Both the position numbers and the translations under genes were made by a program. A DNA stretch of 64,000 nucleotides from Eubacterium sp. (GTDB lineage Bacteria > Bacillota > Clostridia > Lachnospirales > Lachnospiraceae): contig JAILGP010000215.1 of assembly GCA_024696635.1 (NCBI GenBank), positions 1-64,000 on the forward strand, written 5' to 3'. Of the stretch, positions 3,761 to 47,314 are shown one piece after another. The number at the start of each line of letters is the position of its first letter. The first letter of the stretch is position 1. The notes beneath the pieces are model-generated. The model saw only the letters and a list, made by a program, of their open reading frames with translations, made no database searches and was not told where the DNA came from.

Positions 3761-3783
3761 TAGGACACGGGAGGAACTGACAA

Positions 3784-5344: not shown

Positions 5345-5408
5345 TCAGCGGTCTTGATGTGGTTTTATAGGAAAGTCAAAATTATAGGATTTAGGGGTTT
5401 TATTTTAC

Positions 5409-7520: not shown

Positions 7521-7562
7521 TAATCGGATTGATATATCGATTAGGAAATGAGAGGATAAGTT

Positions 7563-19145: not shown

Positions 19146-21476
19146 ATGACTAGATTTAAAAGTGTTGGGTTAAAATTTCTAAAAAAAGTATTTTGTGTAA
19201 CTATGGCGGCTACATTTGTACTTGGAACTACGGCGTGTGGAAAGAAAGAGGAAACTACGACTTCTATGGCTGAAACGGCAAAACAGTCGGTTAATTATGT
19301 TTTTGCTATCAGTGATGAGGGGAGTATTAGTGGAATAGAAGGTAATTTATACTCGGCCACGGCATACGGAGACAGGGTTTGTTTCTATACTGAAGAATAT
19401 ATTACTAATGAAAACGCGGCATCTTCGGGAGATGCGTCCAGCGAGGAGGATTATTATGTTCCTGAGCAGATGGTGTGTAAAATATATGATGCTTCAATAG
19501 ATGGAGGACAGGCTGAGGTTATTGCAGAGCCTGAGATAGAGGCTGGGGATTATATAAAGGATGTATTGATAAATAAAAATGGATTTTGTGGATATGTAGT
19601 TTCCAGATATACAGAGGAAGAAGCTTCGAATGAGCAAATCTGTTTTTATAAGGATGGTGGATTTAGTGATCCTGTTATTATACGTGATCACATAAGTATT
19701 GGTCCTGATATGTATCTTTCCAAAGTATTGATAGATGATAATGATAATATATGCTTGGTTTTTGATACAAGTGTTTATGTTTTGGATAAAGATATGAAAC
19801 AGATTTGTGAGTATAAAACAGAAGGCTATATTGATACGTGTGCTGTTGATAAGGATGGAAATATGGTTCTGGTTATATCCAGCTCGGATGGCAGTGAAGG
19901 AACAAAACTATTAACATATGATTCTGGTCAGAATAAATTTGCAAATGAACATTCTATTGGTCTTAGTAATATTTATGGTTATAATACTCTTATGCGTGGA
20001 AGCGGAGATTTTGATTTATACATCAATATATCTAATAAGCTTTATGGATATAAGTATTCTGATCAGTCCATAACGGAGATTGCAGATTTTGTTGCATCTG
20101 ACATTGATGCAGATGCGCTGAATGGTGTTGTTCCTATTTCTACTGAAGCTTTTTTGGTTGGATCTTCTGATTATAATGGTAATTCTTCATTAGATAGATA
20201 CATTAAGGTTGATCCGGATACTATTAAAGATAAAAAGATACTTACTTTAATGTCTCCATACTTGGATTCTTATACTAAGAACTCGGTTTTGGAGTTTAAT
20301 AAGACTCATTCTGATGTAAGAATAAATATTATTTCCTATGATGAGGAGGAAGATCCTTTAGCTAAGATGAGTGCAGACATAGCTGCAGGAAATCTTCCTG
20401 ATATATATGACTTATCTATGGGCTCTGTTGGTGGCATGTCTGTTGAACAGTGTATAGCTAAAGGAATGTTTGAGGACCTGACACCTTATATGGAGTCTGA
20501 TTCAGAAATTAGTGAGGATGTTATACTTCCTAATGTTCTTAATGCTCTTAAGGTAGATGGGAAATTATATAGGACGGCTTCTTCATTTACGGTTATGTCC
20601 CTTATGGCAAGAAAATCTGAAGTTGGAGAAGAACCTGGCTGGACATTTTCAGAAATGAAGGATTATGTGGATTCAAAGGGTGAAGATGTAAGGTTATTTG
20701 AAACTACCAATAAGTCAGAGAATCTGGATTATTTCATATATGGAGGCTTAGGGGATTTTGTTGACTGGTCAAATGGCACTTGTTCATTTGATTCTCCTGA
20801 ATTCAAGGATCTTCTTCAGATTTGTAATCGTGGTACCAATGATGAAACTGATTATTCTGATTATGAGGAAAATTCAGTTCCAAATTTAGTGAGAAATAAA
20901 CAGCTTCTTTTTATTCAGGGAGGTATTAATCCTGAAGATTATAAAATGTATAAGGCTTTATATGAAGATGACATATGCTATAAGGGATATCCTAATAAAA
21001 ATAAAAAGGGATCCTTTATAAATACTAATGGAGGTCTTGCTATTTCTTCAAAGACTGAGTATAAGGATGAGGCATGGCAATTTGTAAGAACTCTTTTTAC
21101 GGAAGAGTATCAGAGCAAAAATTATGTAGATTATTATTCTATTCCGACTAGAAAAGATGTTTATGAAGAGTATATTAAACTTATACAAAATACAGAAGAA
21201 AATGCTAAGGATAAATACGGGAATGATATGTATCCTATTAATGGTACATTTAGCTGGTATGATCTGGAGATAACACTTGAACCCTTTAATGATAGTGAAA
21301 CAGAGGATTTTAGAAAGCTTATAGAATCAGCTGATGAACTATGGGTTTATGATACAGGTATTGCCGAAATTATACGCGAGGAGGCTCTTTCTTATTTCCA
21401 GGGAGATAAATCTGTAGACGAAGTGGCTTCAATTATTCAAAACAGAGTAAATACATATATCAATGAGAATAAATAA
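19146..21476 (+). CDS. Extracellular solute-binding lipoprotein (family 1) with long N-terminal propeller-like extension
   Basis: Lipobox LGTTAC; SBP_bac_1-like SYTKNSVLEFNKTHSDVRINIISYD; followed by two sugar permeases. Confidence 0.85.
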   Translation: MTRFKSVGLKFLKKVFCVTMAATFVLGTTACGKKEETTTSMAETAKQSVNYVFAISDEGSISGIEGNLYSATAYGDRVCFYTEEYITNENAASSGDASSEEDYYVPEQMVCKIYDASIDGGQAEVIAEPEIEAGDYIKDVLINKNGFCGYVVSRYTEEEASNEQICFYKDGGFSDPVIIRDHISIGPDMYLSKVLIDDNDNICLVFDTSVYVLDKDMKQICEYKTEGYIDTCAVDKDGNMVLVISSSDGSEGTKLLTYDSGQNKFANEHSIGLSNIYGYNTLMRGSGDFDLYINISNKLYGYKYSDQSITEIADFVASDIDADALNGVVPISTEAFLVGSSDYNGNSSLDRYIKVDPDTIKDKKILTLMSPYLDSYTKNSVLEFNKTHSDVRINIISYDEEEDPLAKMSADIAAGNLPDIYDLSMGSVGGMSVEQCIAKGMFEDLTPYMESDSEISEDVILPNVLNALKVDGKLYRTASSFTVMSLMARKSEVGEEPGWTFSEMKDYVDSKGEDVRLFETTNKSENLDYFIYGGLGDFVDWSNGTCSFDSPEFKDLLQICNRGTNDETDYSDYEENSVPNLVRNKQLLFIQGGINPEDYKMYKALYEDDICYKGYPNKNKKGSFINTNGGLAISSKTEYKDEAWQFVRTLFTEEYQSKNYVDYYSIPTRKDVYEEYIKLIQNTEENAKDKYGNDMYPINGTFSWYDLEITLEPFNDSETEDFRKLIESADELWVYDTGIAEIIREEALSYFQGDKSVDEVASIIQNRVNTYINENK

Positions 21477-21479: not shown

Positions 21480-22439
21480 ATGATTAGTAAAGCAAAAAAA
21501 GAAAGTAAAAAATTAAAAAAAGAGAATATTAGAATTCTAGATAATGAGGGTAATGAGATAATCTATAAGAAAAAGCATGAGACATGGAGGGAGAGATGCA
21601 CTGCATCTCTCTTCCTGGGCCCAAGCCTGATTGGAGTTTTGATTTTCTTCATAATCCCTTTTTTTGTTGTTATTTTTTACGCCAATACTGAGAGCGTTAT
21701 AGATAAAAGCTTTGTTGGTCTAAAGAATTTCCAAAATGTATTTAATAATTCTGCCTTTCGCACAGCCTCAAAGAATACTGCTATGTTTTCTCTTATAACA
21801 GTTCCGCTGGCTATTATTCTTTCCATGAGCATGGCTCTTATACTGGATGAGGAAATTCCTGCAAAGTCGTATTTCAGAACTTTTTTCCTGAGTCCTCTTA
21901 TGGTTCCAGTAGCGTCGGTTGTGTTGATCTGGCAGGTTTTATTTGATTATCATGGAGTTGTAAATCAGATTTTAAATGTTTTCGGAGGGGGGAATATAGA
22001 CTGGTTTAAGTCGAGCTATAGTCAGATAGTTGTAGTTATACTATTTCTATGGAAGAATCTTGGATATAATATGATTCTTTTTATGTCGGCTCTTTCGGCT
22101 ATCCCCAGGGATGTTATTGAGGTTTCATATCTGGATGGTGCATCAAGATTTAAACAGTTCTGGTATATAAAACTCAGATATATAACTCCTACTATTTTCT
22201 TTGTGGGAATTATGTCCCTTATTAATTCTTTTAAGGTGTTCAGAGAGGTTTATCTTCTTACAGGAGATTATCCATATGATTCCCTTTATATGTTGCAGCA
22301 TTTTATGAATAATACCTTCCGTTCGCTGGATTATCAGAAGCTTTCGGCAGCGGCTATCATTATGTGTGTAGTTATGATTATTATCATAGGTATACTATTT
22401 ATATTCGAGGACAAGGTGGGAAAAGATGTCGAAGGATAA
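21480..22439 (+). CDS. Carbohydrate ABC transporter permease (MalF type)
   Basis: SLFLGPSLIGVLIFFIIPF, EVSYLDGASRFKQFWYIKLRYITPTIFF (EAA loop). Confidence 0.94.
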   Translation: MISKAKKESKKLKKENIRILDNEGNEIIYKKKHETWRERCTASLFLGPSLIGVLIFFIIPFFVVIFYANTESVIDKSFVGLKNFQNVFNNSAFRTASKNTAMFSLITVPLAIILSMSMALILDEEIPAKSYFRTFFLSPLMVPVASVVLIWQVLFDYHGVVNQILNVFGGGNIDWFKSSYSQIVVVILFLWKNLGYNMILFMSALSAIPRDVIEVSYLDGASRFKQFWYIKLRYITPTIFFVGIMSLINSFKVFREVYLLTGDYPYDSLYMLQHFMNNTFRSLDYQKLSAAAIIMCVVMIIIIGILFIFEDKVGKDVEG

Positions 22440-23496
22440 TATGAAATACATAATTGATGAAGAGGAAGAAAGAGAACGCCTGGAGGAAGAAGAGCAAAAA
22501 CAAGAAGAAGAAAATGAAAAGAAAAAGGGAAAAAGGATACTTAAAATAGGTGGTTTTACCTTTAAATCAGAAAGGAAAAATCGTAGAAAAGGGAAGATTT
22601 CACTGGGCAGAAAAATCCTTCTTACAGTAATAGCAGCCTTTTTTGCAATATCCTTTCTTCTTCCAACAATACTTACATTTGCTAATTCTTTTATGTCAGA
22701 ACAGGAAATCAGTTCTAATTATGGAATAATATTTAATGATTATTCCAATAAGGCTTCCTATAGTGATGAAGAAAGAACAACCACATATAGGTCTGAAACA
22801 GTTAATCTAAAGCTTATTCCAGATAAGGTTGTTTTTTCTCAGTATGAAACGGTGCTGTTTAAGAGTCCGGATTATCTTATGAAGTTCTGGAATTCTGTAT
22901 TCCTTACATTTCCTATAATGATTTTTCAGATAGCAATTGCTCTTGGGGCAGCCTACTCTTTTGCAAGATTCAGGGGAAAGGTTAGAGAAATAATTTTCTT
23001 CTTATATCTGATACTTATGCTTATGCCATATCAGGTAACGCTTGTTCCGAATTACCTGGTTTCAGATTATTTGGGCTTGCTTGATACCAGGTGGTCTATA
23101 ATACTTCCTGGAATATTTGCCCCATTTTCAGTTTACCTGCTTACTAAGTATATGAGGCGTATACCAGAGTCTCTTATCGAAGCTGCAAAGCTTGATGGCG
23201 CTAATGAATGGAATATTTTTTGGAAAGTTGCTATTCCTATTTGCAAGGGACCTATAGTCTCGGTTGCGATTCTTGTGTTTATAGATTATTGGAATATGGT
23301 TGAACAGCCAATTATTATGCTTAGTGATTCGGCTTATCATCCATTATCTGTTTTCCTTTCTCAAATAAATAATGGTGAGATAGGACTTGCCTTTGCGGTT
23401 GCTACTATATATATGGTTCCACCTATTCTTATATTCCTCTATGGAGAAGAATATCTTGTGGATGGAATTGCATATTCAGGTTCTGTAAAGGGTTGA
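22426..23496 (+). CDS. Carbohydrate ABC transporter permease (MalG type)
   Basis: ESLIEAAKLDGANEWNIFWKVAIPICKGP; charged cytosolic N-terminus. Confidence 0.94.
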   Translation: MSKDNMKYIIDEEEERERLEEEEQKQEEENEKKKGKRILKIGGFTFKSERKNRRKGKISLGRKILLTVIAAFFAISFLLPTILTFANSFMSEQEISSNYGIIFNDYSNKASYSDEERTTTYRSETVNLKLIPDKVVFSQYETVLFKSPDYLMKFWNSVFLTFPIMIFQIAIALGAAYSFARFRGKVREIIFFLYLILMLMPYQVTLVPNYLVSDYLGLLDTRWSIILPGIFAPFSVYLLTKYMRRIPESLIEAAKLDGANEWNIFWKVAIPICKGPIVSVAILVFIDYWNMVEQPIIMLSDSAYHPLSVFLSQINNGEIGLAFAVATIYMVPPILIFLYGEEYLVDGIAYSGSVKG

Positions 23497-23542: not shown

Positions 23543-25051
23543 ATGAATACTAATGAACAAAATGAAGGCTTAAGTGTAAGAAAGAAGATAGTTAAAAGAT
23601 TTTCAGTAATATTTTTTGTTGTATTAATAATTTTAACTTTCTTTTCAAATACTATTATGAATTATTCTCTTCCTGAGGTTTCTACTGAGACTGTGTTTGC
23701 CGGAAGTGTATCCAAGAAGGTTAAATGTCAGGGAGCGGTAGAGGTAAGTAATGATCTTGAGGTGACCGTAAGTGGTAAGAGAGTAGTTAAAGAAATAATG
23801 TTCGAAGAGGGTGATACAGTTGAAGTGGGTGATGTGATCATGACCTTTGAGGAAACTGAGAATACAGAGCTTGCTGAAGCAGAGAAGGAGCTTGAGACTC
23901 TTGAGGATAATTATACAAAACAGACACTTAGAACTACAAAGGATTATACTGACCAGGAGGTTCAGATATCCAATGCCCAGGATGATGTGTCAGATGCTAC
24001 AGATGATTTAAACCAGGCTAGGACAGATGCCGCTAATCTTGAAACTGCTAAGGCTGAAAGGGATGAACTTCAGGCCCAGTATGATGCAAAAAGTGTTGAG
24101 GTTGAGGGGATTCAGACTAAGGTTGATTCCTATGAAAGTTTATCAGATTATTATCAGAATGCAACGGCTACAGATGCTTTAGTTTCGAGTTTAGGAACAG
24201 CTAAGGAGGAGCTTGCAGCTTTAGAGATAAGTCTCGAAGAAAAGAAGACGCTGGTTTCTGAACTTGAAGGTAAGACAACAGTAGAAGCGGCACAGGAAGC
24301 TCTTACAAGTGCTCAACAGAATCTGGCTTCCTTGCAAAGAACACTGGCAGAAACTAAAGAAAATGATTCTATTACAGATCAGACAAATGCTATAGATGAT
24401 GCTAACGCTCTTGAAGAAATAGAGGAACAGAAGGCTAAAATCGAAAAGCTTAAGGCTCAGGATGATTGTAAGGAAATTAAGGCTAAGGAGGCTGGAATTA
24501 TAACAGGAATTACTGTAAAGCCTGGAGATACTATTGAGGCAGAAACTCCTATTGCTAATATACAGCTTACCCAAACAGGATATGAAGTTTCAGCTGTTAT
24601 TAATAAGCAGCAGTCTCGGCTTCTTAAGGTGGGGGATGAGGCTTCGATTGAGAATTTGTGGGGAAGTGAAGCTACAGCTTCTATAAAAAGTATTAAGGCT
24701 GATCCTACCAATCCTAATCAGTCAAGTGTTGTTAAATTCTCAGTTCTGGGTGATGTTCAGGTTGGGGAGACACTTCAGTTTGCTGTTGGTGAGAAAAGTG
24801 GAAAGTATGATACGGTAGTACCCAATAGTGCTGTTAAGGAAGAGTCTGATGGCAAATTCGTATTTGTTGTAAAGGTTAAAGCAACACCTCTTGGAAACAG
24901 ATATGTAACTAAGAAGGTAAAGGTTGAGGTGGTTGCAAGTGATACAGTAAATTCTGCTGTAAGTGGTGATCTTTCTGAATATGATAATATCATAATAAAT
25001 TCATCAAAGCCTTTAGATAATGGACAGCAGGTCAGACTATCTGACAATTAG
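23543..25051 (+). CDS. HlyD/RND-type membrane fusion (adaptor) protein
   Basis: TM anchor, biotinyl-lipoyl-like halves (VKCQGAVEVSNDLEVTVSGKRVVKEIMFEEGDTVEVGDVIMTF / IITGITVKPGDTIEAETPI), long coiled coil. Confidence 0.85.
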   Translation: MNTNEQNEGLSVRKKIVKRFSVIFFVVLIILTFFSNTIMNYSLPEVSTETVFAGSVSKKVKCQGAVEVSNDLEVTVSGKRVVKEIMFEEGDTVEVGDVIMTFEETENTELAEAEKELETLEDNYTKQTLRTTKDYTDQEVQISNAQDDVSDATDDLNQARTDAANLETAKAERDELQAQYDAKSVEVEGIQTKVDSYESLSDYYQNATATDALVSSLGTAKEELAALEISLEEKKTLVSELEGKTTVEAAQEALTSAQQNLASLQRTLAETKENDSITDQTNAIDDANALEEIEEQKAKIEKLKAQDDCKEIKAKEAGIITGITVKPGDTIEAETPIANIQLTQTGYEVSAVINKQQSRLLKVGDEASIENLWGSEATASIKSIKADPTNPNQSSVVKFSVLGDVQVGETLQFAVGEKSGKYDTVVPNSAVKEESDGKFVFVVKVKATPLGNRYVTKKVKVEVVASDTVNSAVSGDLSEYDNIIINSSKPLDNGQQVRLSDN

Positions 25052-25210: not shown

Positions 25211-26416
25211 ATGGAAAAATTTTTTAATCCTGACAAAAAAATAGTTATTCCGGTTCTGGGGATAAATCTGCTTCTTATACTAATTATAATTGGAATGGTT
25301 TTTGTTAGTTCCAATAGGGTTGAGACTATGTACTCAGAGATGGCAGCAGAACGCTGGGAAAATGATGCTCTTGCTTATTCGGAGGTCAGCCTTTATTATG
25401 AAAATATATCAGGTCTGACGGAAAGTGATATATTTAATATTAGAAATTCTGTGCAGACAAAGCTGGCTGAGGATTCCTTTATTGATGAGGGTAGTGAAAA
25501 CAGGGCTTGGATTGATTCTTATTCTACCCAAACCACTACTACAATCAGAAAGGATTCTACTAATCTTGACGTGGATGTATATCTGGTAGGGGGAGATTTC
25601 TTTAAGATTCATCCCATTCCTCTTAAGGGAGGAAATTATCTTGATATAGAAAATCAGGATTTTAATCAGATAGTTTTGGATGAAAATGTAGCCTGGAATT
25701 TATTTGGTAGTAATAATATAGAAGGAATGAAGGTTTGGATTGGCGAGTCTGTATATACAATCGCTGGAGTTGTAGGCGTGAGTGAAGATAAGGCTGATAT
25801 TCAGGCTTATGGTGAACATGACTGTGTTTACATTCCATTTAAGGCTTATTCTAAAGAGGATAAAGAACTTAAGGCTACAAATTATCAGGCTGTAATTCCT
25901 AATCCTATTAAGAATTATGCGAAGAATATTCTGGCAGAAGCGGCAGGTATACATTTTAAGACAGATGAGGAGTTGAAGAACAGCCGTACTATCCTTAATT
26001 TTGATGATGTTGAATTGGTTGAGAATACTGATAGGTATAGTATCATTTCACTTTTTGGCAAGAGGAATAATCATAAGTATGTGGATATGAGGGTTAATAC
26101 AATACAGTATCCATATTGGGAAAATGTCGCTAAATATAATGAGACTCAAATGCTTAGATGGTTAAATGCAGCTATGATTCTTAGTATAATTCCACTTCTT
26201 TCCCTTGTATATCTTATGATTTGGTTATATAAAAGAAGAAGGTGGGCCTTAAAGCCGGTCCGGTTTGTGACTGGTAAGATATCTGGTGCTATAGAAGAGA
26301 AGAAAATTAAAAAATATGAAGAGAAGGAAAAAAAGAAAGAGGAAGAGGAACTGGAGCTTAGGATGAAGAATAGTAATCCTCAGGTTCAGCAGGGATCAGA
26401 GAATATAAATCCATAG
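25211..26416 (+). CDS. MacB-periplasmic-core-like membrane protein
   Basis: Two terminal TMs; LVGGDFFKIHPIPLKGGNYLDIENQDFNQIVLDENVAWNLFGSNNIEGMKVWIGESVYTIAGVV is MacB_PCD-like. Confidence 0.75.
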   Translation: MEKFFNPDKKIVIPVLGINLLLILIIIGMVFVSSNRVETMYSEMAAERWENDALAYSEVSLYYENISGLTESDIFNIRNSVQTKLAEDSFIDEGSENRAWIDSYSTQTTTTIRKDSTNLDVDVYLVGGDFFKIHPIPLKGGNYLDIENQDFNQIVLDENVAWNLFGSNNIEGMKVWIGESVYTIAGVVGVSEDKADIQAYGEHDCVYIPFKAYSKEDKELKATNYQAVIPNPIKNYAKNILAEAAGIHFKTDEELKNSRTILNFDDVELVENTDRYSIISLFGKRNNHKYVDMRVNTIQYPYWENVAKYNETQMLRWLNAAMILSIIPLLSLVYLMIWLYKRRRWALKPVRFVTGKISGAIEEKKIKKYEEKEKKKEEEELELRMKNSNPQVQQGSENINP

Positions 26417-26444: not shown

Positions 26445-29429
26445 ATGGGGTCTTATGAGATAACTGTATTGGGGCTGGTTCAGGGAATAGGATATAGATC
26501 CTTTGTTTCAAATTATGCTATTAAAAATTGTCTGAAGGGCTATGTAAAGAATTATGGTGGGGCGGTTAAGATATATGTTGAATGCCAACCTGAAGATATT
26601 GGGAAATTTACATATTATTTAAGGTATGAATGTCCTTCTGGGGGTCTGATCGAGAATATCATAGTAAAGCCTGTAAAAATCAGGGAGATTACACAGACAG
26701 AGGAAGAAAAGGAAAGAGGAGATACTCTTGAAGAACTGAAGGAAAAGTATGGATTAAATCAAAATGAAGAGATTCTTACTGCCAGTCAGATTGGAGATAA
26801 AAATAATAAGGAAAAGAATCAGCAAAATGAAGAGTCTATTATAATAACAAGTTATGGTGAGGCTGGAAATGAAATTGAGGGTGGATTCAATATCCTTAAA
26901 GGCCAAAGCTTTAATGAAGAACCAAGATATATTCCTATGGATATTGCCATTTGTCCAGAATGTCTTAAGGAATTAAAGAATCCTGAGAATCCAAGATACA
27001 GGTATCCTTTTATAAGTTGTAAATCCTGTGGCCCAAGGTACTCTATCATGACGGATATTCCCTATAATAGGGAAAATACTACTATGGGTATTCATAGGAT
27101 GTGCCCTGATTGTGCTAAGGAATATCTGCAATTGGGTAATAGGAGACATTTGTCAGAAACTCAGTCTTGTCCTAATTGTGGTCCTGTGCTTAGGTTTTAT
27201 CGTAACAGAAGGGTTGATGAGATTCAGCTTTCTAATGATCAGATGCTAGAGCAAACAATCATCAGCTTAAATAATGAAGAGTTTGGTGCCATAAAGGGTC
27301 TGGAGGGCTTTTCTTTTATTTTTTCACCCTTTAAAGATAAGGCTATTAAAAAGGTCAGGGCCTTTAAGGGAAATGTAAGGTATCCTATGGCTGTTATGTT
27401 TCCTGATTTAGATAGTGTAAAAAAGTATTGTCTTATATCCCCCAAAGAAGAAGAGTTGCTTACTTCCAATGCCCGCCCTATAGTTCTGCTTAAAAAGAAA
27501 AAGGAATATCTTGAGGCGGAAAAGCATAGGCAGGAAATAAAAGACGGTAGCTTCAAATCTCTATATACTCCAGATGAAATTTTTTCATCTGAGCTTACAG
27601 GACAAAGTGACCGTATAGGTGCTGCCCTTCCTTCTACAGGATTGCAGGTTCTTCTAACTATGGATGGAGGACCGATTGCATTTACTTCTGGAAATAAAAA
27701 TGGGGAACCTATAATATCAGAGGAAAGGGATATTATTGGGTTCCTGAATGAAATAGATGAGAGCGATATGAAGGGAATAGATATTATTCCTGACGAAGCT
27801 CACATAAGAAGAACTGCAGGCGTTGTTAATGAAATAGAAGAGGAAGCTAAGAGAGAGTCTAAAAAGGAAACTAAAGAAAGTTCTGGAGAGGGCTTTAAAA
27901 TCAATAAATCTTTAAGTGATAATATGGATGACGATACGCAGGAAGAAAAACATCCTGGGCCAAAGATTCATATTGATTTTATGCTTACAAATACCCTTGA
28001 TATAGTGGTTCCTATGGAATATTCCTTGGTTCAGGTTTCCCAAATAAATGTAAGGAATCAGGTTCGTCAGATTGTTCAATATATAAGAAGGTCTAAGGGT
28101 TATGTTCCTTATCCTATAAAACTGGAGAAAGAGGTTAAGGGAGAGTGCTTTGCCGCTGGTAGTGATAGTGATACTGCTTTTGGAATTGGCAAAAAGAATT
28201 ATATTTATATGTCGGAGCATTTTGGAAACCTGTCCTGCAGAAAAACAGTTCTTGCGAGACGTGAGTCCATAGCTCGAATGGAAAAAATGTTTTTCCTTAG
28301 ACCTCAGAGGGTCTATACTGATCTTTCTTCTGAATATCAGTCTGTTATTGATGGAAAAACCAAGGTTCGTGAAACTAATTCTTATGAGCGTGTTGTTGAG
28401 CTTATTCAGAGACAGCATCATACTTCTCATATTCTTTCTGTTGCAGCAGAGCATAATCTTAAGGGACGCCTTCTGGGGATAGCCTATGATGGAAATGGAT
28501 ATGGCTTTGATGGAACTGTATGGGGGAGCGAAATATTTTCCTGTCTGCTTAATACGGTAGTTGATGAAGCGGGAGCGGATCCTGATAAGACAGTAGAGCT
28601 TAGACCTTATATACTTCGTTCGGGAGCACTTCTTCCTATAAAGATGACAGAGGGTGATTCAAAGACTACTCTTTGCTGCTATATTAAGGCTGCTGAAGAA
28701 AGACAGCTGATCAGTGTAGGTGGGGTTGACAGGATTCTTAAGGCTCTTGATATCAGAAAAAGTGATTATGCAATAATAAGTGCCTGCCTCAGGGCTGACA
28801 TAGGAATATATTACTCTGATTCTATGGGCAAGCTTTTTGAAGCAGTGGCTGGTCTTCTTGGTGTTTGTAAGAGTGAAACTTATAATGGAGAGTGTATAGG
28901 TATTCTGGAAACTTATGCTAATAGGGCTCTTGACAGGCTTGGTGTAAATGTAATGAATCTTCCTGATGGGGATAGAGGTCTGTTTGGTAATAATCCAAGA
29001 CTGGAGATGAAATACACAGAACCATATGATCCAGATGAGATTTTCAGAATGGATCAGACTCGGCTTGTGGCTGATATGGTGGAATACTATCTTGCTCTTT
29101 TGGAAAATGCTAATTCTGATGAAGAAATAACAAATGGAATAAATCAGCTGGCTCTTGAATTTCACAGGGCGGTTATTGATGCCACAGTGGATGTGTGTGA
29201 CCAAATATGTGGACGTGATTATATTCAGCATATAGCGCTTTCAGGCGGTGCCATTTATAATGGTATTCTCCTGGACGGTATAGTTGGTAGTCTTGAAAGA
29301 CTGGGTTATACAACCTATCTTAATAAGGAAATACCTGCAGGGGATGGCGGCGTTGCTATTGGTCAGATGTATTATGTGGATATGATAGAACCTAAGGCTC
29401 TTGATATGGATGACAATCAGGATGATTAA
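26445..29429 (+). CDS. HypF-like carbamoyltransferase (acylphosphatase, zinc finger, divergent YrdC, Kae1-like)
   Basis: GLVQGIGYRSFV; CPECLKEL..CKSCGPRYSI..CPDCAKEY..CPNCGP; YDGNGYGFDGTVWGSEIF; LSGGAIYNGILL; AGDGGVAIGQ. Confidence 0.87.
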   Translation: MGSYEITVLGLVQGIGYRSFVSNYAIKNCLKGYVKNYGGAVKIYVECQPEDIGKFTYYLRYECPSGGLIENIIVKPVKIREITQTEEEKERGDTLEELKEKYGLNQNEEILTASQIGDKNNKEKNQQNEESIIITSYGEAGNEIEGGFNILKGQSFNEEPRYIPMDIAICPECLKELKNPENPRYRYPFISCKSCGPRYSIMTDIPYNRENTTMGIHRMCPDCAKEYLQLGNRRHLSETQSCPNCGPVLRFYRNRRVDEIQLSNDQMLEQTIISLNNEEFGAIKGLEGFSFIFSPFKDKAIKKVRAFKGNVRYPMAVMFPDLDSVKKYCLISPKEEELLTSNARPIVLLKKKKEYLEAEKHRQEIKDGSFKSLYTPDEIFSSELTGQSDRIGAALPSTGLQVLLTMDGGPIAFTSGNKNGEPIISEERDIIGFLNEIDESDMKGIDIIPDEAHIRRTAGVVNEIEEEAKRESKKETKESSGEGFKINKSLSDNMDDDTQEEKHPGPKIHIDFMLTNTLDIVVPMEYSLVQVSQINVRNQVRQIVQYIRRSKGYVPYPIKLEKEVKGECFAAGSDSDTAFGIGKKNYIYMSEHFGNLSCRKTVLARRESIARMEKMFFLRPQRVYTDLSSEYQSVIDGKTKVRETNSYERVVELIQRQHHTSHILSVAAEHNLKGRLLGIAYDGNGYGFDGTVWGSEIFSCLLNTVVDEAGADPDKTVELRPYILRSGALLPIKMTEGDSKTTLCCYIKAAEERQLISVGGVDRILKALDIRKSDYAIISACLRADIGIYYSDSMGKLFEAVAGLLGVCKSETYNGECIGILETYANRALDRLGVNVMNLPDGDRGLFGNNPRLEMKYTEPYDPDEIFRMDQTRLVADMVEYYLALLENANSDEEITNGINQLALEFHRAVIDATVDVCDQICGRDYIQHIALSGGAIYNGILLDGIVGSLERLGYTTYLNKEIPAGDGGVAIGQMYYVDMIEPKALDMDDNQDD

Positions 29430-30618
29430 ATTTAAGACGGATAAAAAAACAAAAAATGAATTAAAACCAGAATTATCGGATTCATTTAGTTTGCTGAATT
29501 CATCAAATGAATCGTTAGGAAAAAATAGCAATAAATCATTTATAGGCCTTTTGCTTCTTGGCATAGGCCTTCTTGTTGTAATTTCTTTGGTTTTTTCGGG
29601 CTTATACAGGAAGGTCATTGATAATGTTGGAGATTCTGTAAATGAGTCGGAGAAGGAATATAAAAGACATTATGTACTTATAGTGGATGGTCTGGATTCA
29701 GTATTTTGGGACGATGTATATTCCTATATGCAGGAAGAGGCATCCCTTAGAAATGATTATGTAGAGTTAGTTCAATGGAATGTGGATGGAGAATATGATG
29801 TATGCAAGCTTATTGACAAGGCTATAATAAGTGATGTTGATGGAATAATTCTTCAGTACAGTAATGATGAAAAGGTTGATGAAAAAATCAATGAAGCAGC
29901 TGGAAAGGGCATTCCTGTTGTTACTCTTATGAATGATTCTCAGTCCACGGAACGAATAGCCTATGTGGGAGTAAATGCTTATTCGATTGCTCAAGATTAT
30001 GCTGATGAATTATCTAAAATGATGGATGGGGAAACAGAAAAGCTGGACGTAGCATTTTTCATCACAGATTCTGAAACTAATAGTAATCAGTATCAGATTT
30101 TTTCTCAGACCAGGAATATAATAGGTCAGAATTATAAGCTTAAGAGCAGGGTGGAGGTTACTGCTCTTGATATAACTGAGGATAATAAGTTTAGTGTTAA
30201 TGGTATAATCAGAAATTACTTTAATGATCCTGATAACAGACCTGATTATGTTATATGCTTTGATCTTGTAATAACAGAATCCTTATATCAGACCCTGGTG
30301 GATTATAATCTTTTGGGAAGAACTAAGATTATAGGTTACTATAAGTCTGATAATATAATGAATTCTCTTATAAATGGAAACGTTGCATCTACTCTGGTTC
30401 TGGATGCGGAAGGAATGGGGGTATATCCTATTGAGGCGCTGGATAATTATATAGAATCTGGTCATAATAATATTTATTATACAGTTTCTTATAATTTCCT
30501 TGATAAAGAGGATGCAATCAAGAGCTATGAGGATGATGTCTCAGAAAAGGATTCAGATGAGGAAATAGATGAGACGGATATGAGCTTAGATGATGAGGAG
30601 GGTTCTGAGAATGAATAG
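29422..30618 (+). CDS. Membrane-anchored RbsB-type sugar-binding protein
   Basis: Single N-terminal TM; YVLIVDGLDSVFWDDVYSYMQEEA..VDGIILQYSN; overlaps upstream stop and downstream kinase. Confidence 0.82.
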   Translation: MIKFKTDKKTKNELKPELSDSFSLLNSSNESLGKNSNKSFIGLLLLGIGLLVVISLVFSGLYRKVIDNVGDSVNESEKEYKRHYVLIVDGLDSVFWDDVYSYMQEEASLRNDYVELVQWNVDGEYDVCKLIDKAIISDVDGIILQYSNDEKVDEKINEAAGKGIPVVTLMNDSQSTERIAYVGVNAYSIAQDYADELSKMMDGETEKLDVAFFITDSETNSNQYQIFSQTRNIIGQNYKLKSRVEVTALDITEDNKFSVNGIIRNYFNDPDNRPDYVICFDLVITESLYQTLVDYNLLGRTKIIGYYKSDNIMNSLINGNVASTLVLDAEGMGVYPIEALDNYIESGHNNIYYTVSYNFLDKEDAIKSYEDDVSEKDSDEEIDETDMSLDDEEGSENE

Positions 30619-32080
30619 AAAAGAACTTTCCATTCGTGAAAAGCTTATGTTTGTAATGCTTTTTACCCTTATTCTTATATTTGTAAGTAATGTAATAATG
30701 TTTATAACAGTCAATTCTCTTATGGGAAGACTTAATTCGGTATATGAAAGTAATGTGGATATTAATGATTTAAGAGAGGCTCTTACCCAGGTTCATTCCA
30801 GTATGTATTCTTATCTTGAAATTCGAGATTATAATTCTCTGCAGGATTATTACAGGGCCGAGGAAGATCTTAAAAAGCAGATGGAAAGTCTGAATGTAGA
30901 TATAACATCTAATCCAATAGATATACTTGAAAAGAATATTAAGAATATGACGGATGCTTTTCTGGAAACCTCAGATGTGGCCATAAACAGCCGTCGAGGA
31001 ATGAATATTGATGAATATACGCCTTATTATGACAGGGCTATGGAAATATATGAATATATTGTATCTGATATAGCCAAGCTTAATCAGATGTTATTTGAAA
31101 AGAACTCGGATAATTATATCTCTATGCAGAGGGCTCTTGGATATCTGGAGCTTTCCACAGTTACAGTACTTTCTGTAATTCTTCTTATTGGTATAATCCT
31201 TATGGCTAGAATGACCAATGGTATAGTTCAGCCGCTTATCAGACTTGCGAATTCTGCTAAGCGGGTTGGTGAGGGTGATTTCAGCCAGAGAGTTGATGAA
31301 AGCGATACAGATGATGATGAGGTAGGTGTCGTTACCCACGCCTTCAATGGAATGGTTAATTCCTTAAATGAATACATGATAAAGGTTAAGAAAAGTGCGG
31401 CTGTAGAAACAGAGCTTCGTGAGAAGGAGCTGATGATGGAAAATCATCTTCATGAGGCTCAGCTTAAATTCCTTCAGGCTCAGATTAATCCACATTTCCT
31501 TTTTAATTCTCTTAATGCTGGCGTGCAGTTAGCTGAAATGGAGGATGATGAAAGGACTGCGGTTTTTCTTGATAGAATGGCACATTTTTTTAGATATAAT
31601 ATTAAAAAGGGAACGGAAGCTACAACCATTGGAGAAGAGCTTAAGATGGTTGATGATTATGTTTACATTTTGAATGTCCGTTTTGCAGGTGAGATAAAAT
31701 TTATAAAGGAGGTTGATGAAGAGGTAAGCTCTGTTAATATGCCTAGTATGATACTTCAGCCTCTTGTGGAAAATTCTCTGAACCATGGTATCAGAGAAAA
31801 TCTTTCTGAGGGCTGGATAAAGCTTGAGGTTATTAACAGGAATGACTTTGTTGAGATTATTGTTTCTGATAACGGAAAAGGTATGACACAGGAACAGATA
31901 GATGTTATTATGGGAAGGCTGGAGGCTGACCCGGATGAAAAGAAGGAGACCACAGGAATAGGAGTTGGAAATGTTATCTCTCGACTTAAATTATATTCTG
32001 GAAGAGAGGATGTAATTGATGTGGTAAGTCAAGGACCTGGCATGGGAACTGAGGTTCATTTGTATTTATATAATAATTAA
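30611..32080 (+). CDS. Sensor histidine kinase, LytS/YesM type with HAMP
   Basis: HAMP LIRLANSAKRVGEGDFSQRV; QINPHFLFNSLNAGVQLA; PLVENSLNHGI; VSDNGKGM. Confidence 0.94.
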   Translation: MNRKELSIREKLMFVMLFTLILIFVSNVIMFITVNSLMGRLNSVYESNVDINDLREALTQVHSSMYSYLEIRDYNSLQDYYRAEEDLKKQMESLNVDITSNPIDILEKNIKNMTDAFLETSDVAINSRRGMNIDEYTPYYDRAMEIYEYIVSDIAKLNQMLFEKNSDNYISMQRALGYLELSTVTVLSVILLIGIILMARMTNGIVQPLIRLANSAKRVGEGDFSQRVDESDTDDDEVGVVTHAFNGMVNSLNEYMIKVKKSAAVETELREKELMMENHLHEAQLKFLQAQINPHFLFNSLNAGVQLAEMEDDERTAVFLDRMAHFFRYNIKKGTEATTIGEELKMVDDYVYILNVRFAGEIKFIKEVDEEVSSVNMPSMILQPLVENSLNHGIRENLSEGWIKLEVINRNDFVEIIVSDNGKGMTQEQIDVIMGRLEADPDEKKETTGIGVGNVISRLKLYSGREDVIDVVSQGPGMGTEVHLYLYNN

Positions 32081-32091
32081 GAGGCAGTAAT

Positions 32092-33690
32092 ATGTTTAGA
32101 ATTGTGGTAGCTGATGATGAAGGTATAATGAGGGAATCCATTAAGAATAATCTGGAATCCAACTTTGGCCAAAAGCTGGAGGTGAGAACAGTAAAGTCTG
32201 GAAGAGAAGCTATAGAGGAGTGTCTTAATTTTAGACCAGATATAGTATTTATGGATATTCAGATGCCGGGAATCTCTGGAATACAGGCTATAAAGGAAAT
32301 ACAAAAATTTAATAAGTCCATAAGATTTATTATCATCACAGCTTATGATAGATTTTCCTATGCTCAGGAGGCTATTAGTCTTGGGGTTGTGGAATATATT
32401 ATGAAACCTGTTACCAAAAAGAAGATTATGGATGTGGCAATTAAGGTTATGAACCAGATTGATGAGGAGCGGAAGAAGAATAGTGATGACCTTAAGGTAA
32501 GAGAAAAATTGGAAATAGTAGTGCCTATGATAGAATCCGCCTTTATCAATAATATCCTTCAGGGATCTGACACCGGAAAGGGCAGAGAGTATTTGAATAT
32601 GCTGGATGTCCAGGAGGAATATGGCTATATAGTAGTACTGGAGTTTGGAGATGACTTTGAAGATGGTGTTCTTACCAATGCTATGGGCTCCAATGTAAGA
32701 CTTAGTAAACAGTATGATAATCTTAAGGAATCAATAAAGGCTTTCTTTGATTCTATAGTTGGTCCGATCATGGGAAATCGTGTTGTTATATATGTGCCTA
32801 TAAAGGAAGGGCAGCTTGAATATGATAGAAGAGTTGAAATCATAACAAGAATAAGAAGTATGATACTTAATCTTGAAGATACCATGGAAATGAAATTCAG
32901 AGCCGGAATAGGTGAGGTTAAGTATATAGAGGATAGTTATGAATCATATACGGAAGCCATTCGAAGTCTTCATAGAAGTAATAAGCATATTGTTCACGCA
33001 GAGGATATCAGTGTTGCAGAGGATATGACTCAGGATGTTTCAAATGTTATGGATCTGGAGCAGAAATATATACAATGCTGTATGAAGGGTGGGGTAGAGA
33101 CGGCCCTTATATTTGCTGATTCTCTTATTGAAGCCTTGAAGGATATTGAGACCATAAGCTTTGGTGAAAAGAAAACCAGAGTTTATGAGCTTATAGTAAG
33201 GCTTGAACAGCAGTGTCAGGATATAGGTATAATTAAATATGAAATAAGAAGTCATGCCGAGTATTTGAATGATATAGTGGAAATATCCAATATGCAGGAG
33301 CTCGGTGTATGGCTTCAGGATAAAACAAAGAGACTTTGTAATGATATAGTTTCCTTTAGAACCGACAGTGGAAATGGGGCTATAGGTAAATCTATAAGTT
33401 ATATTAACGAGAATTTCTCAAGAGATCTTAGTCTGGATGATGTGGCAAGATTTGTTGATATCAGTCCATACTATTTTAGTAAGCTATTCAAACAGGAAAT
33501 GGGGGAAAACTTTGTTGAGTATCTTACTAAGTACAGGGTGGCTCAGGCTAAAACATTTCTCGCAAATGAAAGCTTAAGTATTAAGGAGATATGTGGGATG
33601 GTAGGTTATTCTGATCCTAATTATTTCTCCAGGATATTTAAAAAATATGAAGGCGTAACTCCAACGGAATATAGAAATGGTGAAGGATAG
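32092..33690 (+). CDS. Response regulator, YesN type, AraC output
   Basis: IVVADDEGIMRESI, DIVFMDIQMPGISG; C-terminal AraC HTH ISPYYFSKLFKQEMGENFVEYLTKYRVAQAK. Confidence 0.95.
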   Translation: MFRIVVADDEGIMRESIKNNLESNFGQKLEVRTVKSGREAIEECLNFRPDIVFMDIQMPGISGIQAIKEIQKFNKSIRFIIITAYDRFSYAQEAISLGVVEYIMKPVTKKKIMDVAIKVMNQIDEERKKNSDDLKVREKLEIVVPMIESAFINNILQGSDTGKGREYLNMLDVQEEYGYIVVLEFGDDFEDGVLTNAMGSNVRLSKQYDNLKESIKAFFDSIVGPIMGNRVVIYVPIKEGQLEYDRRVEIITRIRSMILNLEDTMEMKFRAGIGEVKYIEDSYESYTEAIRSLHRSNKHIVHAEDISVAEDMTQDVSNVMDLEQKYIQCCMKGGVETALIFADSLIEALKDIETISFGEKKTRVYELIVRLEQQCQDIGIIKYEIRSHAEYLNDIVEISNMQELGVWLQDKTKRLCNDIVSFRTDSGNGAIGKSISYINENFSRDLSLDDVARFVDISPYYFSKLFKQEMGENFVEYLTKYRVAQAKTFLANESLSIKEICGMVGYSDPNYFSRIFKKYEGVTPTEYRNGEG

Positions 33691-33696
33691 AAATCA

Positions 33697-34746
33697 ATGT
33701 TGAAAAATAATAAGAAAATGAAAGGGATAAAAAATATAATTTCGATAATGCTGATTACCCTGCTGCTTTTTACTACATTTGGATGCGGAAAAAGTGAAGG
33801 TGACAGTCCTGAAGAGGAGGCAGATGAGGGGATAAAAATAGGCATGTGTTTTGATTCCTTTGTTATAGAAAGGTGGATCACAGATAGGGATGTATTTGTA
33901 TCTACGGCAGAGGCACAGGGGGCCAGTGTTATAGTTCAAAGTGCAAATGCGGATGTGGAGACTCAGGTTCAGCAGATTCAATATCTTATTGATGAAAAGG
34001 TGGATGTTATCGTTGTGATACCTATTGATGTTTCTGCTCTTTCTGATATTCTCGTTAAGGCAAAGGAAGAGGGAATTAAGGTTATAAGCTATGACAGGCT
34101 TTGTCAGAATTCTGACGTGGATTTATATATTTCCTTTGATAACAGGCGGGTTGGATATCTTATGGCTGACGCGATAGTAAGTGAGCTTCCAGAGGGCGGA
34201 AATATTTATATGATAGCAGGACCTGAAACTGATAATAACGCTGATAGTGTTGTTGAAGGTTTTGAGGAAAGAATAAATGGTACTAATCTTAAGGTTACAT
34301 ATAAAACTCGTCTGGATAGCTGGGATGCCAGTCTTGGATATACAGCTATAGGGGATGCTTTGCAGAAAAATCCTGATGTGGATGCAATAATGTGTGGTAA
34401 TGATGATATAGCGACACAGGTATTCATAGCTCTGTCGGAAAATCGCCTGGCTGGAGAGGTTCTGCTTACGGGACAGGATAGTGACCTTGCAGCATGTCAA
34501 AGAATAGTTAAGGGAACTCAGCTTATGACGGTTTTTAAATCCTTTGAAAAGGAAGCTGAGACTGCGGCAGAATATGCAATTAAGCTTGCAAAAGGAGAGG
34601 ATGTATCATCGGATACTATTAATGATGGAATATATGATGTACCATATATTGAACTGGCTCCACAAGCTGTTACTATTGATAATATAGATGAGGTTATTAT
34701 TAATAGTGGGACCAGGACTCATGATGAGGTTTATATGGATAATTAA
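33697..34746 (+). CDS. Sugar-binding lipoprotein, XylF/ChvE-like
   Basis: Lipobox TTFGC; IGMCFDSFVIERWITDRDVFVSTAEAQGASV, VISYDRLCQNSDVDLYISFDNRRVG. Confidence 0.88.
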   Translation: MLKNNKKMKGIKNIISIMLITLLLFTTFGCGKSEGDSPEEEADEGIKIGMCFDSFVIERWITDRDVFVSTAEAQGASVIVQSANADVETQVQQIQYLIDEKVDVIVVIPIDVSALSDILVKAKEEGIKVISYDRLCQNSDVDLYISFDNRRVGYLMADAIVSELPEGGNIYMIAGPETDNNADSVVEGFEERINGTNLKVTYKTRLDSWDASLGYTAIGDALQKNPDVDAIMCGNDDIATQVFIALSENRLAGEVLLTGQDSDLAACQRIVKGTQLMTVFKSFEKEAETAAEYAIKLAKGEDVSSDTINDGIYDVPYIELAPQAVTIDNIDEVIINSGTRTHDEVYMDN

Positions 34747-34762
34747 ATATAGTATATAGTTT

Positions 34763-34801
34763 AAATGCGGGAGACTATCACAGTGGTCCCGCATTTTTTT
34801 T
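34763..34801 (+). terminator. Intrinsic terminator
   Basis: AAATGCGGGA...TCCCGCATTT followed by T tract. Confidence 0.92.
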
Positions 34802-35112
34802 GTTAAAATCTGGAATAATCATAGTGGCAAAATGCAAATTTTGATGCAGTATTTTGGACTTTTATATCAATCACCCTTTTGATATAGGTAAAAATAACTA
34901 AAAAAAACATAATTTAAGTAAAAAATATAGACTTATAGCACAATGTTGCATAAGAACCGCATTTTTTTGTCATTATTCCTTTAACTTTCCTTATCTGGTA
35001 ATTAAGTTGACTAAATCTTGCTATTTGTTAGCAATACTTTCGAAATTCTATATAGTATTATGTTTTTAGTTGAAAAACACGTATATAAAAACAAAACAGG
35101 GAGGTTTTTATT

Positions 35113-36342
35113 ATGAAGAAAAAGTTTTCTAAGTTTTTAGCTTTTGCACTTACAGGAGCTATGATGACTGCAGCATTTACAGGATGTGGAGCTTCAGGTG
35201 GCGACACGGATACAGCTGATACAAGTGCTGATACAGCTGCAGAAGCAGAAACAGAAGCTGAAGCAGAAACAGAAGCAGAGGACACAGCGGATGAAGCAGC
35301 AGGAGGACAGAAGGTTGGTATCGCAATGCCTACACAGTCTCTTGAAAGATGGAACAGAGATGGTTCTTATCTTAAAGAGCAGTTTGAAGGAAAAGGCTAC
35401 GAAGTAGAGCTTACCTATTCTGACAACAAGATTGATCAGCAGGTTAAGGATATCGAAGGTCTTATAGCTGACGAAGTTGATCTTCTGGTAGTTGCAGCTA
35501 TCGACGGTGAGTCCCTTTCACAGGTTCTTGCAGATGCTAAAGATGCAGATATTCCAGTTATATCCTATGACCGTCTTATCATGAACACAGATGCAGTTAG
35601 CTACTATGTATCATTTGATAATTACACAGTAGGAAAACTTCAGGGTGAATTCGTAGAGACAAAGCTTGATCTTGCAAATGCAGGAGATAAGACTTACAAC
35701 ATCGAGTTTACAGCAGGTGATCCTGCAGATAACAATGCAGGCTTCTTCTTTAACGGAGCTTATGATGTACTTAAGCCATATATCGATGCTGGAACACTTG
35801 TAGTTCCATCTGGACAGACACAGTTTGATCAGGTTGCTACAGCAGCTTGGGATACAGCAACAGCAATGGAAAGAATGCAGAACATTCTTGGTTCTTATTA
35901 CTCAGATGGTCAGCAGCTTGACGTAGCTCTTTGCTCAAATGACTCTACAGCACTTGGTGTTACACAGGCTATAGAAACAGACTACTCAGGAAGCAATTCA
36001 GTTGTAATCACAGGTCAGGACGGTGACGTTGCTAACCTTGCAAATATCGTAGATGGAAAGCAGACAATGACAGTTTATAAGGCAGTTGCTAACGAAGCAG
36101 TTGCAACACTTGATCTTGGTATCGCTCTTCTTAACGGAAAGACACCTGGAGAAGAACTTATTTCTGAATCTGGATGGTCATTCCAGTGTGCATATGATAC
36201 ATCATCATATGACAATGGAACAGGAATCATTCCTTCATACCTGCTTGTACCTACAGTAGTTACTGCTGATAATATTCAGTCAGAACTCGTTGACACAGGA
36301 TATTACACACTTGATGATAATGGATATCCACAGGCTAAATAA
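35113..36342 (+). CDS. chvE: Multiple-monosaccharide ABC transporter substrate-binding lipoprotein, ChvE-like
   Basis: Lipobox FTGC; VGIAMPTQSLERWNRDGSYLKEQFEGKGYEVELTYSDNKIDQQVKDIEGLI, PVISYDRLIMNTDAVSYYVSFDNYTVG. Confidence 0.92.
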   Translation: MKKKFSKFLAFALTGAMMTAAFTGCGASGGDTDTADTSADTAAEAETEAEAETEAEDTADEAAGGQKVGIAMPTQSLERWNRDGSYLKEQFEGKGYEVELTYSDNKIDQQVKDIEGLIADEVDLLVVAAIDGESLSQVLADAKDADIPVISYDRLIMNTDAVSYYVSFDNYTVGKLQGEFVETKLDLANAGDKTYNIEFTAGDPADNNAGFFFNGAYDVLKPYIDAGTLVVPSGQTQFDQVATAAWDTATAMERMQNILGSYYSDGQQLDVALCSNDSTALGVTQAIETDYSGSNSVVITGQDGDVANLANIVDGKQTMTVYKAVANEAVATLDLGIALLNGKTPGEELISESGWSFQCAYDTSSYDNGTGIIPSYLLVPTVVTADNIQSELVDTGYYTLDDNGYPQAK

Positions 36343-36391
36343 TTAAAGAAAAAGAATTAAGCCAAATAAATAACTTTTTCACACACCCATC

Positions 36392-36434
36392 CTCATATAA
36401 AGGCGGGGGAGCAATCCCTCGCCTTTAATATGAG
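36392..36434 (+). promoter_or_regulatory. Intercistronic stem-loop between SBP and ATPase genes
   Basis: CTCATATAAAGGCGGGGGA-gcaa-TCCCTCGCCTTTAATATGAG; one bulge, one G-U, no T tract. Confidence 0.75.
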
Positions 36435-36469
36435 CATACAAGGATTCGGTGTTTAGGGAGGTGAAAACT

Positions 36470-38014
36470 TTGTCAGATTATATTCTGGAAATGAATAACA
36501 TTACAAAATTATACCCAGGTGTTAAAGCTTTAGATGACGTAAATCTCAAAGTTACCAAAGGTGAGATACATGCACTTGTTGGTGAAAACGGTGCTGGTAA
36601 GAGTACACTGATGAACGTTCTATCAGGAACTATACCTCATGGACAATATACCGGTCAGATTAAATTTAATGGGGACGAGTGTACATTTTCAAACATTAAA
36701 GATTCTGAAGAAAAAGGAATCGTTATCATTCACCAGGAACTGGCTCTTATACCGGAGCTTACTATTGCAGAAAATATGTTTCTGGGAAATGAAAGAGCTA
36801 ATAAGGCCGGAAAAATCGACTGGGCTAAAACCTATAGTGAAGCTCAGAAACAGATGGAGAGAGTCGGTCTTAAAGAAAGATCCGATGTCCTTATTAAGGA
36901 TATTGGTACAGGCAAACAGCAGCTTGTTGAAATCGCAAAGGCTTTATCTAAGAACGTAAAACTTCTTATTCTTGATGAGCCTACATCTTCTCTAAATGAG
37001 GAAGATTCCAAGATGCTGCTGGATATGCTTTTGGGATTTAAGGAGGAAGGCCTTACTTCCATTATAATAACTCATAAGCTCAATGAGGTTGCTTACTGTG
37101 CTGATAATATTACAGTACTTAGAGATGGTGCCACTATAGAAACCATGTCTAATGAAAATCATGATATTGATGAGGAAAGAATCATCAAAGGAATGGTTGG
37201 TAGAGAGCTTACAAACAGATTCCCGGAGAGAGAACATCATATTAGTGATGAGGTTCTTTTTGAGGTCAAGGACTGGACTGTATATCATCCTGTATATACA
37301 GAAAAGTGCGTTGACGACAAGGTAAGTTTCAAGGTTCACAAGGGTGAGATTGTAGGGTTCTCCGGTTTGCAGGGGGCTGGAAGAACCGAACTTGCCATGT
37401 CTCTTTTTGGTAAGAGTTATGGGTCTAGAATTTCTGGACAAGAATTTATAAATGGCAAGGAAGTGCATCTGAAGAATGCGAAGGATGCAATTGACCACGG
37501 ACTTGCCTATGCTACTGAGGATAGAAAGGTTAATGGACTTATTCTTTCGGATACCATAGCACGTAATACTACTATGGCTAAGCTTTCCAAGGTAAGCAAA
37601 AGAGGTGTTTTAAATGTACAGGAAGAGAACAAGGCGGCCGAAGAGTATGTTGAGGCAATGAACACCAAGACTCCTAGCATTCAGCAGAATGTTGGTAATC
37701 TTTCAGGTGGAAATCAGCAAAAGGTACTTCTTTCCAAATGGATGTTTGCTGAACCTGATGTTCTTATTCTGGATGAACCTTCACGTGGTATAGACGTTGG
37801 TGCCAAGTATGAAATCTACTGTATCATGAATGATATGGTTAAACAGGGTAAGGCGGTGGTTATGATATCATCTGAGCTTCCTGAACTGCTTGGCATGTGC
37901 GACCGAATTTACGTCATGAACGAAGGTAAAATGGTTGCAGAATTCAGCTCCGAGGAGGCAACTCAGGAGAAGATTATGAGTGCTATCCTTTCTGCTGATA
38001 AAAAGGAAGGATAA
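36470..38014 (+). CDS. mmsA: Sugar ABC transporter ATP-binding protein, MmsA/GguA type (two ABC domains)
   Basis: [53 protein letters not shown] start after GGGAGGTG. Confidence 0.93.
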
Positions 38015-38032
38015 CTAAGGAGGATTATATAA

Positions 38033-39478: not shown

Positions 39479-39970
39479 TTGGCAAAGATCGAACAAAAAC
39501 AGCCAGTAGTTCAGGAAATCAAAGATTATCTTGACGGGGCTAAATCTGTAGTGCTTGTTGACTATCTTGGTCTTACAGTTGAACAGGATACAAATCTTCG
39601 TAAAGCAGCAAGAGAAGCTGGAGTAATTTACAAGGTTTACAAGAATACTATGGTTAATCTTGCAGTCAAGGGAACTGAGTTTGAAGCTCTCACTAAGGAT
39701 CTTGAAGGTCCTACAGCAGTAGCTATTTCAAAGGAAGATTCAACAGCTCCTGCAAGAGTAGTTGCAAATTTTGCTAAGACTGCCAAGAAGCTCGAGCTTA
39801 AGAGCGGTGTCGTAGAAGGCGTATACTACGATGCAGACGGTATCAAGGTTATTGCAACAATACCATCAAGGGAAGAACTGCTTTCCAAATTCCTTGGAAG
39901 CATCAAATCACCTATTACCAATTTTGCTCGTGTTATCAATCAGGTTGCTGAGCAGAAGGCTGAGGCATAA
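39479..39970 (+). CDS. rplJ: 50S ribosomal protein L10
   Basis: VVLVDYLGLTVEQDTNLRKAAREAGVIYKVYKNTMV; TTG start after AAGGAGGT. Confidence 0.97.
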   Translation: MAKIEQKQPVVQEIKDYLDGAKSVVLVDYLGLTVEQDTNLRKAAREAGVIYKVYKNTMVNLAVKGTEFEALTKDLEGPTAVAISKEDSTAPARVVANFAKTAKKLELKSGVVEGVYYDADGIKVIATIPSREELLSKFLGSIKSPITNFARVINQVAEQKAEA

Positions 39971-47297: not shown

Positions 47298-47314
47298 TGG
47301 AGGAGAAAGAGAAC

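Follow-up and report, generated by a model that had tools for sequence, protein, structure and literature searches.

HypF is seen as an enzyme devoted to the maturation of [NiFe] hydrogenases, and a hypF gene is taken as a sign of hydrogenase capacity. Its reaction has three steps: carbamoyl phosphate is converted to carbamate, carbamate and ATP give carbamoyl-AMP, and the carbamoyl group is then passed on to HypE (PMC9633730, PMC4506123); in the TsaC/Sua5 relatives of its YrdC domain, KxR and SxN together form the ATP site (PMC10321239). This report concerns HypF2, a HypF-derived protein encoded in a 64,000-nucleotide stretch of Eubacterium sp. DNA (the window), which lies on contig C126 of a 3.15-Mb, 240-contig genome that is 97% complete.

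Several described systems resemble HypF2 in part. HypFs from group-4 [NiFe]-hydrogenase operons, such as that of plasmid pNP243 of Butyrivibrio fibrisolvens D1 (WP_073386833.1), have the same domain order, zinc fingers, fold and HHxxH motif, but their genes are flanked by that of the hydrogenase ferredoxin subunit and by HypCDE, and they retain every one of the 18 key positions considered below, neither of which is true of HypF2. The canonical HypF of the genus, found in the window's genome on contig C14, is of the same family and about 29% identical over the alignment, but falls on a separate branch, has intact motifs, and is linked to nitrogenase-like genes and HypCDE. The class-III O-carbamoyltransferases TobZ and GdmN have YrdC-like and Kae1-like domains in common with HypF2, yet in the reverse order, Kae1-like then YrdC-like, without acylphosphatase or zinc domains (PMC9633730), and with active adenylation. 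Finally, the folds of TsaC/Sua5 and TsaD/Kae1 match the two halves of HypF2, although these are stand-alone tRNA t6A enzymes with KxR and SxN intact (PMC10321239).

A second, divergent HypF

The first-pass annotation of the window had marked positions 26,445 to 29,429 as a HypF-like gene, and the domain content bears this out: the reading frame of 994 aa holds the full HypF set recognized by Pfam (acylphosphatase, two zinc fingers, YrdC-like and both Kae1-like parts), in HypF order.

26445..29429, plus strand: HypF2, HypF-derived protein, 994 aa (Pfam/NCBIfam, trees, AlphaFold2, Foldseek)
26454..26684, plus strand: acylphosphatase-like domain, aa 4-80, with Arg17 and Asn35 present and a HypF2-specific Cys62
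26940..27185, plus strand: paired CxxC zinc fingers, Cys169, 172, 191, 194, 219, 222, 241 and 244
27267..28031, plus strand: YrdC-like domain, aa 275-529, eroded at N309, Y312, L517, E524 and Y525, with a charged insert
28083..29384, plus strand: Kae1-like domain, aa 547-980, with HHxxH (657, 658, 661), Asp681, Asp966, Ser627, Cys743, Cys780 and Cys921

An AlphaFold2 model, for which the input was 20 window and locus sequences, reached a pLDDT of 79.8 and a pTM of 0.81, with low confidence at about aa 80-145, 445-505 and 705-720; the second of these regions is the charged insert, which had been noticed in the first reading and is real. HypFs are the nearest solved chains. The top Foldseek match of the model in the PDB is HypF 3vth (TM 0.90 by target), and in the comparison with HypF and TobZ that had been proposed the predicted structure is far closer to this chain than to TobZ 3ver, whose TM by target is 0.28, a value that the differing domain order alone already depresses. 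TobZ-type identity was rejected on the domain order, the damaged adenylation site and this low score.

No hyp or NiFe-hydrogenase genes are seen within the window, as had been reported. A search of the genome did recover a hyp operon, on contig C14, consisting of HypF (790 aa, intact motifs), HypC, a DHFR-like ORF, HypD and HypE; neither HypA nor a NiFe large subunit (PF00374) was found in the window's genome. Because the C14 operon carries its own intact HypF, the genome has two HypFs, of which the window protein is the divergent one, and its being the sole HypF of a complete hyp operon elsewhere is excluded.

Origin of the HypF2 clade

HypF2 relatives were picked by their score to the window protein and then confirmed as one clade by trees. 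They occur in 19 of 61 genomes of the window's genus, and score higher than the 240 bits of the best match outside the window's genome in a family sample of 396 genomes, mostly of other genera. The phylogeny that had been called for comprises four trees, in which HypF2 forms one clade (support 99 to 100 of 100) that branches, with 100/100 support, inside the HypFs of group-4 [NiFe]-hydrogenase operons, and in all four it is well separated from the other HypF of the genus, which rules out an origin as a duplicate of the canonical gene.

Group-4 operons run in the order HyfB-type, NuoH-type, two small subunits, NiFe large subunit, ferredoxin, HypF, HypC, HypD and HypE. Two congeners, G179 (C4, L158) and G200 (C45, L159), possess a group-4 [NiFe]-hydrogenase operon that includes HypD and HypE and lies close to rplJ, the ribosomal protein gene near which HypF2 also lies; both operons are without HypF, and the HypF found in those genomes is of the other type and has a different location. 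Because HypF2 nests among group-4 HypFs and shares the rplJ site with these hydrogenases, it looks like the orphan of a lost locus. The simplest reading of the sequences would be an ancestral hydrogenase locus near rplJ, from which one line lost the hydrogenase, leaving HypF2, and another lost its own HypF. No locus with HypF2 and hydrogenase genes together was found, and so it is phylogeny and position that point to the orphaning.

Other occurrences of these genes were noted in the survey. The B. fibrisolvens D1 plasmid (L171) carries a group-4 hydrogenase operon that is complete and includes HypA as well as HypF, C, D and E, and a NiFe large subunit on a 2.8-kb contig of G205, a genome that is 80% complete, may be real or contamination. 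In another genus, a second short HypF-like ORF (G043:C12:52097-53380, L170; frame of about 644 aa, 27-28% identity) lies in a 20-kb neighbourhood where neither hyp nor hydrogenase genes were recognised.

Loss of signature residues

The YrdC-like half of the window protein was initially described as eroded, and in part it is. The KxR...KPF element is broken, with R replaced by N309 and K by Y312, so that the ATP site formed by KxR and SxN is not intact, although the K of KxR and the SxN are retained. SGN does stand in place of SAN, but this is not diagnostic, since the hydrogenase-operon HypFs of G049 and G038 also read SGN. The reading of HNRxIxxRxDDSV as PDEAHIRRTAGVV was a misalignment; the true counterpart follows the insert and is LTNTLDIVVPMEYSLVQ (aa 513-529), matched in other HypF2 proteins by, for example, LTNTREILAPLEDSVAQ, and here the DD pair is indeed lost, to E524 and Y525. 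The change of GxxLKNT to GSDSDTA includes a real loss (K to D575), but the element belongs to the Kae1-like part and not to YrdC. One loss had been overlooked: all 54 other HypFs have the His of DxHPxY, but the window protein has Ser627 in its place, and 17 of 19 HypF2 proteins have lost it.

Other features persist as first described. All eight zinc cysteines and the HHxxH motif are present in the window protein, as they are in 19/19 HypF2 proteins, and the Kae1 metal site (HHxxH and two Asp) is complete; across the clade each metal-type Asp is kept in 18/19, one being missing in G161, which encodes the nearest relative of the window protein, and the other in G178. The acylphosphatase motif is likewise intact in the window, but the clade has lost its Arg in 6/19 members and its Asn in 3/19. 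YrdC R248 is lost in 11/19 and K415 in 12/19. On the tree, loss of the acylphosphatase Arg amounts to three changes and loss of K251 to five.

To describe these losses, 18 positions were considered that are near-invariant in 54 bona fide HypFs and plausibly functional, with residue roles assigned by alignment and from PMC10321239. Each HypF2 has lost 3-10 of them and 48 of the 54 bona fide HypFs none, counts that are descriptive because the positions were picked after the HypF2 losses had been seen. None is lost in 13 hydrogenase-operon HypFs, in B. fibrisolvens D1, or in the close relative from G305, whose contig is too short for its operon to be visible; this holds also for the HypFs added later, outside the choice of positions, which include D1 and G305 along with G424, G401, G428, G301, G386 and G372. 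Thus the question of whether bona fide HypFs share the substitutions is answered for the key ones, which hydrogenase-operon HypFs are without. The losses are mosaic across HypF2, and a complete KxR or SxN survives in some members, so residual chemistry is possible; judged from these residues, HypF2 is very probably unable to run the full HypF reaction.

Gains accompany the losses. There are 41 new clade-invariant positions in HypF2, 28 of them in the Kae1 domain, a modest enrichment given that this is the longest domain (406 of 761 columns). Among HypF2-specific residues, Cys62, Cys743, Cys780 and Cys921 are invariant in 19/19 HypF2 proteins and present in only 0-4 of 54 other HypFs, and could possibly form a metal, cluster or redox site.

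Gene neighbourhood

HypF2 lies behind a co-directional set of membrane genes:

19146..21476, plus strand: large lipoprotein with a C-terminal solute-binding domain (SBP_bac_8), cassette gene 1
21480..22439, plus strand: MalF-type ABC permease of the cassette
22426..23496, plus strand: MalG-type ABC permease of the cassette
23543..25051, plus strand: HlyD/MFP-type membrane fusion protein of the cassette
25211..26416, plus strand: MacB_PCD membrane protein, two predicted TM segments and a charged tail, 28-bp gap to HypF2
29401..39190, plus strand: sugar ABC/two-component block between HypF2 and rplJ, not conserved with HypF2
39479..39970, plus strand: rplJ (ribosomal protein L10), site landmark; the G161 homologue, 88% identical, matches Ribosomal_L10
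43191-47297 and 47297-51349, after rplJ: rpoB-like and rpoC-like, names based on size and gene order rather than on a family search

The genes usually run SBP-MalF-MalG-HlyD-MacB_PCD-HypF2-rplJ, and many genomes also have a DUF1846 gene upstream; in the other HypF2 loci, where the contig reaches that far, rplJ comes next after HypF2 or is separated from it by a small ORF, with few exceptions. The sugar operon in which the gene had been placed is a local insertion in the window, absent at this site in the other HypF2 genomes, and a sugar-operon link is thereby ruled out. A promoter and terminator scan turned up nothing beyond the level of shuffled sequence. The gene at 25211-26416 is itself curious, in that a MacB periplasmic core beside HlyD and importer-type permeases makes an unusual mix of export and import.

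HypF2 and MacB_PCD are found together in 17/19 genomes (Fisher p 6e-7, uncorrected for phylogeny). There are exceptions to this link: in G189 HypF2 occurs with no cassette, in G178 most of the cassette is missing, and MacB_PCD is found without HypF2 in nine genomes, in one of them as a fragment. A cassette without HypF2 occupies the same site in G172 and other places in other genomes. Behind the cassette, in the slot of HypF2, G157, G174, G180 and G202 carry instead a gene of about 430 aa (L150, L152, L153, L154), of the amidohydrolase family in the three scanned and dihydroorotase-like by eye, and G184 carries an asparaginase; no common theme of replacement emerged across the five genomes.

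What HypF2 may do now

We are highly confident that hydrogenase maturation is not a present role of HypF2; the protein has probably acquired a different function, perhaps together with the adjacent membrane transporter genes. The damage falls on the first two HypF steps and part of the third, while zinc fingers and HHxxH are constant, a pattern that favours a non-maturation role. The sequences would fit best, with a rough probability of 0.5, a role that makes use of the scaffold and of the Kae1-like pocket, the membrane cassette being the likeliest partner. Under this proposal a group-4 [NiFe]-hydrogenase operon once stood at or near the rplJ site, and HypF2 would have been its HypF; hydrogenase and HypCDE would have disappeared, and HypF would have stayed and changed function. 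It would have kept its folded scaffold, its zinc fingers and the greater part of the Kae1-like metal/nucleotide pocket, and new invariant residues would have arisen on these. It might now act in the cytoplasm as a regulator or scaffold that binds nucleotide or metal, with the co-directional SBP-MalF-MalG-HlyD-MacB_PCD cassette as its putative partner. A more specific version, in which a non-carbamoylating regulator or scaffold serves an envelope ABC/MFP/MacB cassette through a rebuilt Kae1-like site with the new invariant cysteines, is tentative.

That role is favoured over the next best explanation, that HypF2 has remained a transferase but acts on a different acceptor (a protein, lipid or small molecule), its Kae1-like domain moving a carbamoyl or related group from an adenylate that either its own altered YrdC or a separate enzyme, for instance TsaC, would supply. 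The constancy of HHxxH, the near-constancy of the metal-type Asp residues, the concentration of new invariants in the Kae1 domain, and the survival of KxR or SxN in some members are all in keeping with such an enzyme, but the frequent loss of R248, K415 and the DxHPxY His, the absence of one Asp in G161 and of the other in G178, and the lack of any evident acceptor candidate in the operon make it rather unlikely. The particular acceptor suggested at first, a sugar or glycan, is unsupported, because the carbamoyl-AMP-making half is the more damaged one and the sugar operon is an incidental neighbour.

Less probable still is an accessory HypF for the HypCDE system that the genus keeps beside nitrogenase-like genes. 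As to INDEPENDENCE from Hyp genes, HypD occurs in 24/61 genomes and HypE exceeds its cut-off in 22. HypF2 coincides with HypD in 14/19 genomes, above expectation (p 5e-4, uncorrected for phylogeny), as an accessory protein would; however, these 14 genomes, the window's included, have a canonical HypF of their own, mostly within the hyp operon, and ten genomes have HypD without HypF2. Moreover, five HypF2 genomes (G158, G167, G188, G189 and G204) have no other HypF, HypD or HypE over cut-off, absences that rest on draft genomes, several of them less than 90% complete, though G189 is 98% and G204 91% complete; G158, G167, G188 and G204 are one lineage, so that with G189 they make two independent cases. 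The HypF2 operon itself is without HypD, HypE or [NiFe] hydrogenase genes.

It is quite improbable that HypF2 is an ordinary working HypF with neutral substitutions. The window protein scores 460.3 bits against the NCBIfam model TIGR00143 (hypF), narrowly below the cut-off of 466.1, and four other tested HypF2 proteins exceed it (489-543 bits), so that pipelines would label them HypF, but these scores are well under those of hydrogenase HypFs (655-726) and of the canonical HypF (751); the positions lost are retained even where identity to the window protein is only about 35%, as in hydrogenase-operon HypFs, and five HypF2 genomes have no HypE. That HypF2 is a decaying, functionless leftover, its catalytic residues lost after the hydrogenase was, can be dismissed almost entirely, since frames of 828-994 aa are intact in 19 genomes, the zinc cysteines are invariant and new invariants have been gained, and since pairwise dN/dS of 0.06-0.12 over several pairs (0.03-0.10 for the canonical HypF of the same genomes), approximate ratios from NG86 only with dS mostly above 1 and thus saturated, contradicts a pseudogene within those limits.

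Regardless of its exact activity, the phylogenetic origin of HypF2, its residue losses, the selection on it and its occurrence without Hyp genes are established at the level of sequence. The repurposing raised by the first-pass annotation is thus well supported, by phylogeny, the lost invariant residues, purifying selection and persistence without Hyp partners, and a non-maturation role with the membrane cassette as putative partner is the form of it that we prefer.

Hyp genes beside nitrogenase-like genes

A separate observation concerns the canonical Hyp genes. HypF, C, D and E adjoin NifH/NifD/NifK-like genes in the genus and in Coprococcus comes, Eubacterium ramulus, Blautia and Roseburia faecis; most of these Lachnospiraceae loci have two nitrogenase-like sets, and several a radical SAM gene.

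186-8066 of G000:C14 (L032): Hyp and Nif-like locus of the window's genome
L035, L036, L038-L041, L043, L045, L103, L107, L108, L110 and L112: further Hyp and Nif-like loci

No NiFe large subunit (PF00374) was found in seven genomes reached through such loci, or in 21 of the 24 HypD-bearing genomes of the genus. This gene arrangement suggests that the Hyp proteins at these loci may serve the nitrogenase-like enzyme, and Fe(CN)2CO-type chemistry for such an enzyme would be a striking possibility. A literature search on nitrogenase-like genes with HypD or with Butyrivibrio returned no description, which is weak evidence of novelty.

Implications

HypF2 is a clade of proteins, mostly annotatable as HypF, that strong purifying selection maintains although no hydrogenase accompanies them. 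The sequence of steps by which a multi-domain enzyme is repurposed can be read from it, from loss of the operon, through retention of one gene and loss of its catalytic residues, to the rise of new invariant positions. It also serves as a warning that hydrogenase maturation is not to be inferred from hypF alone.
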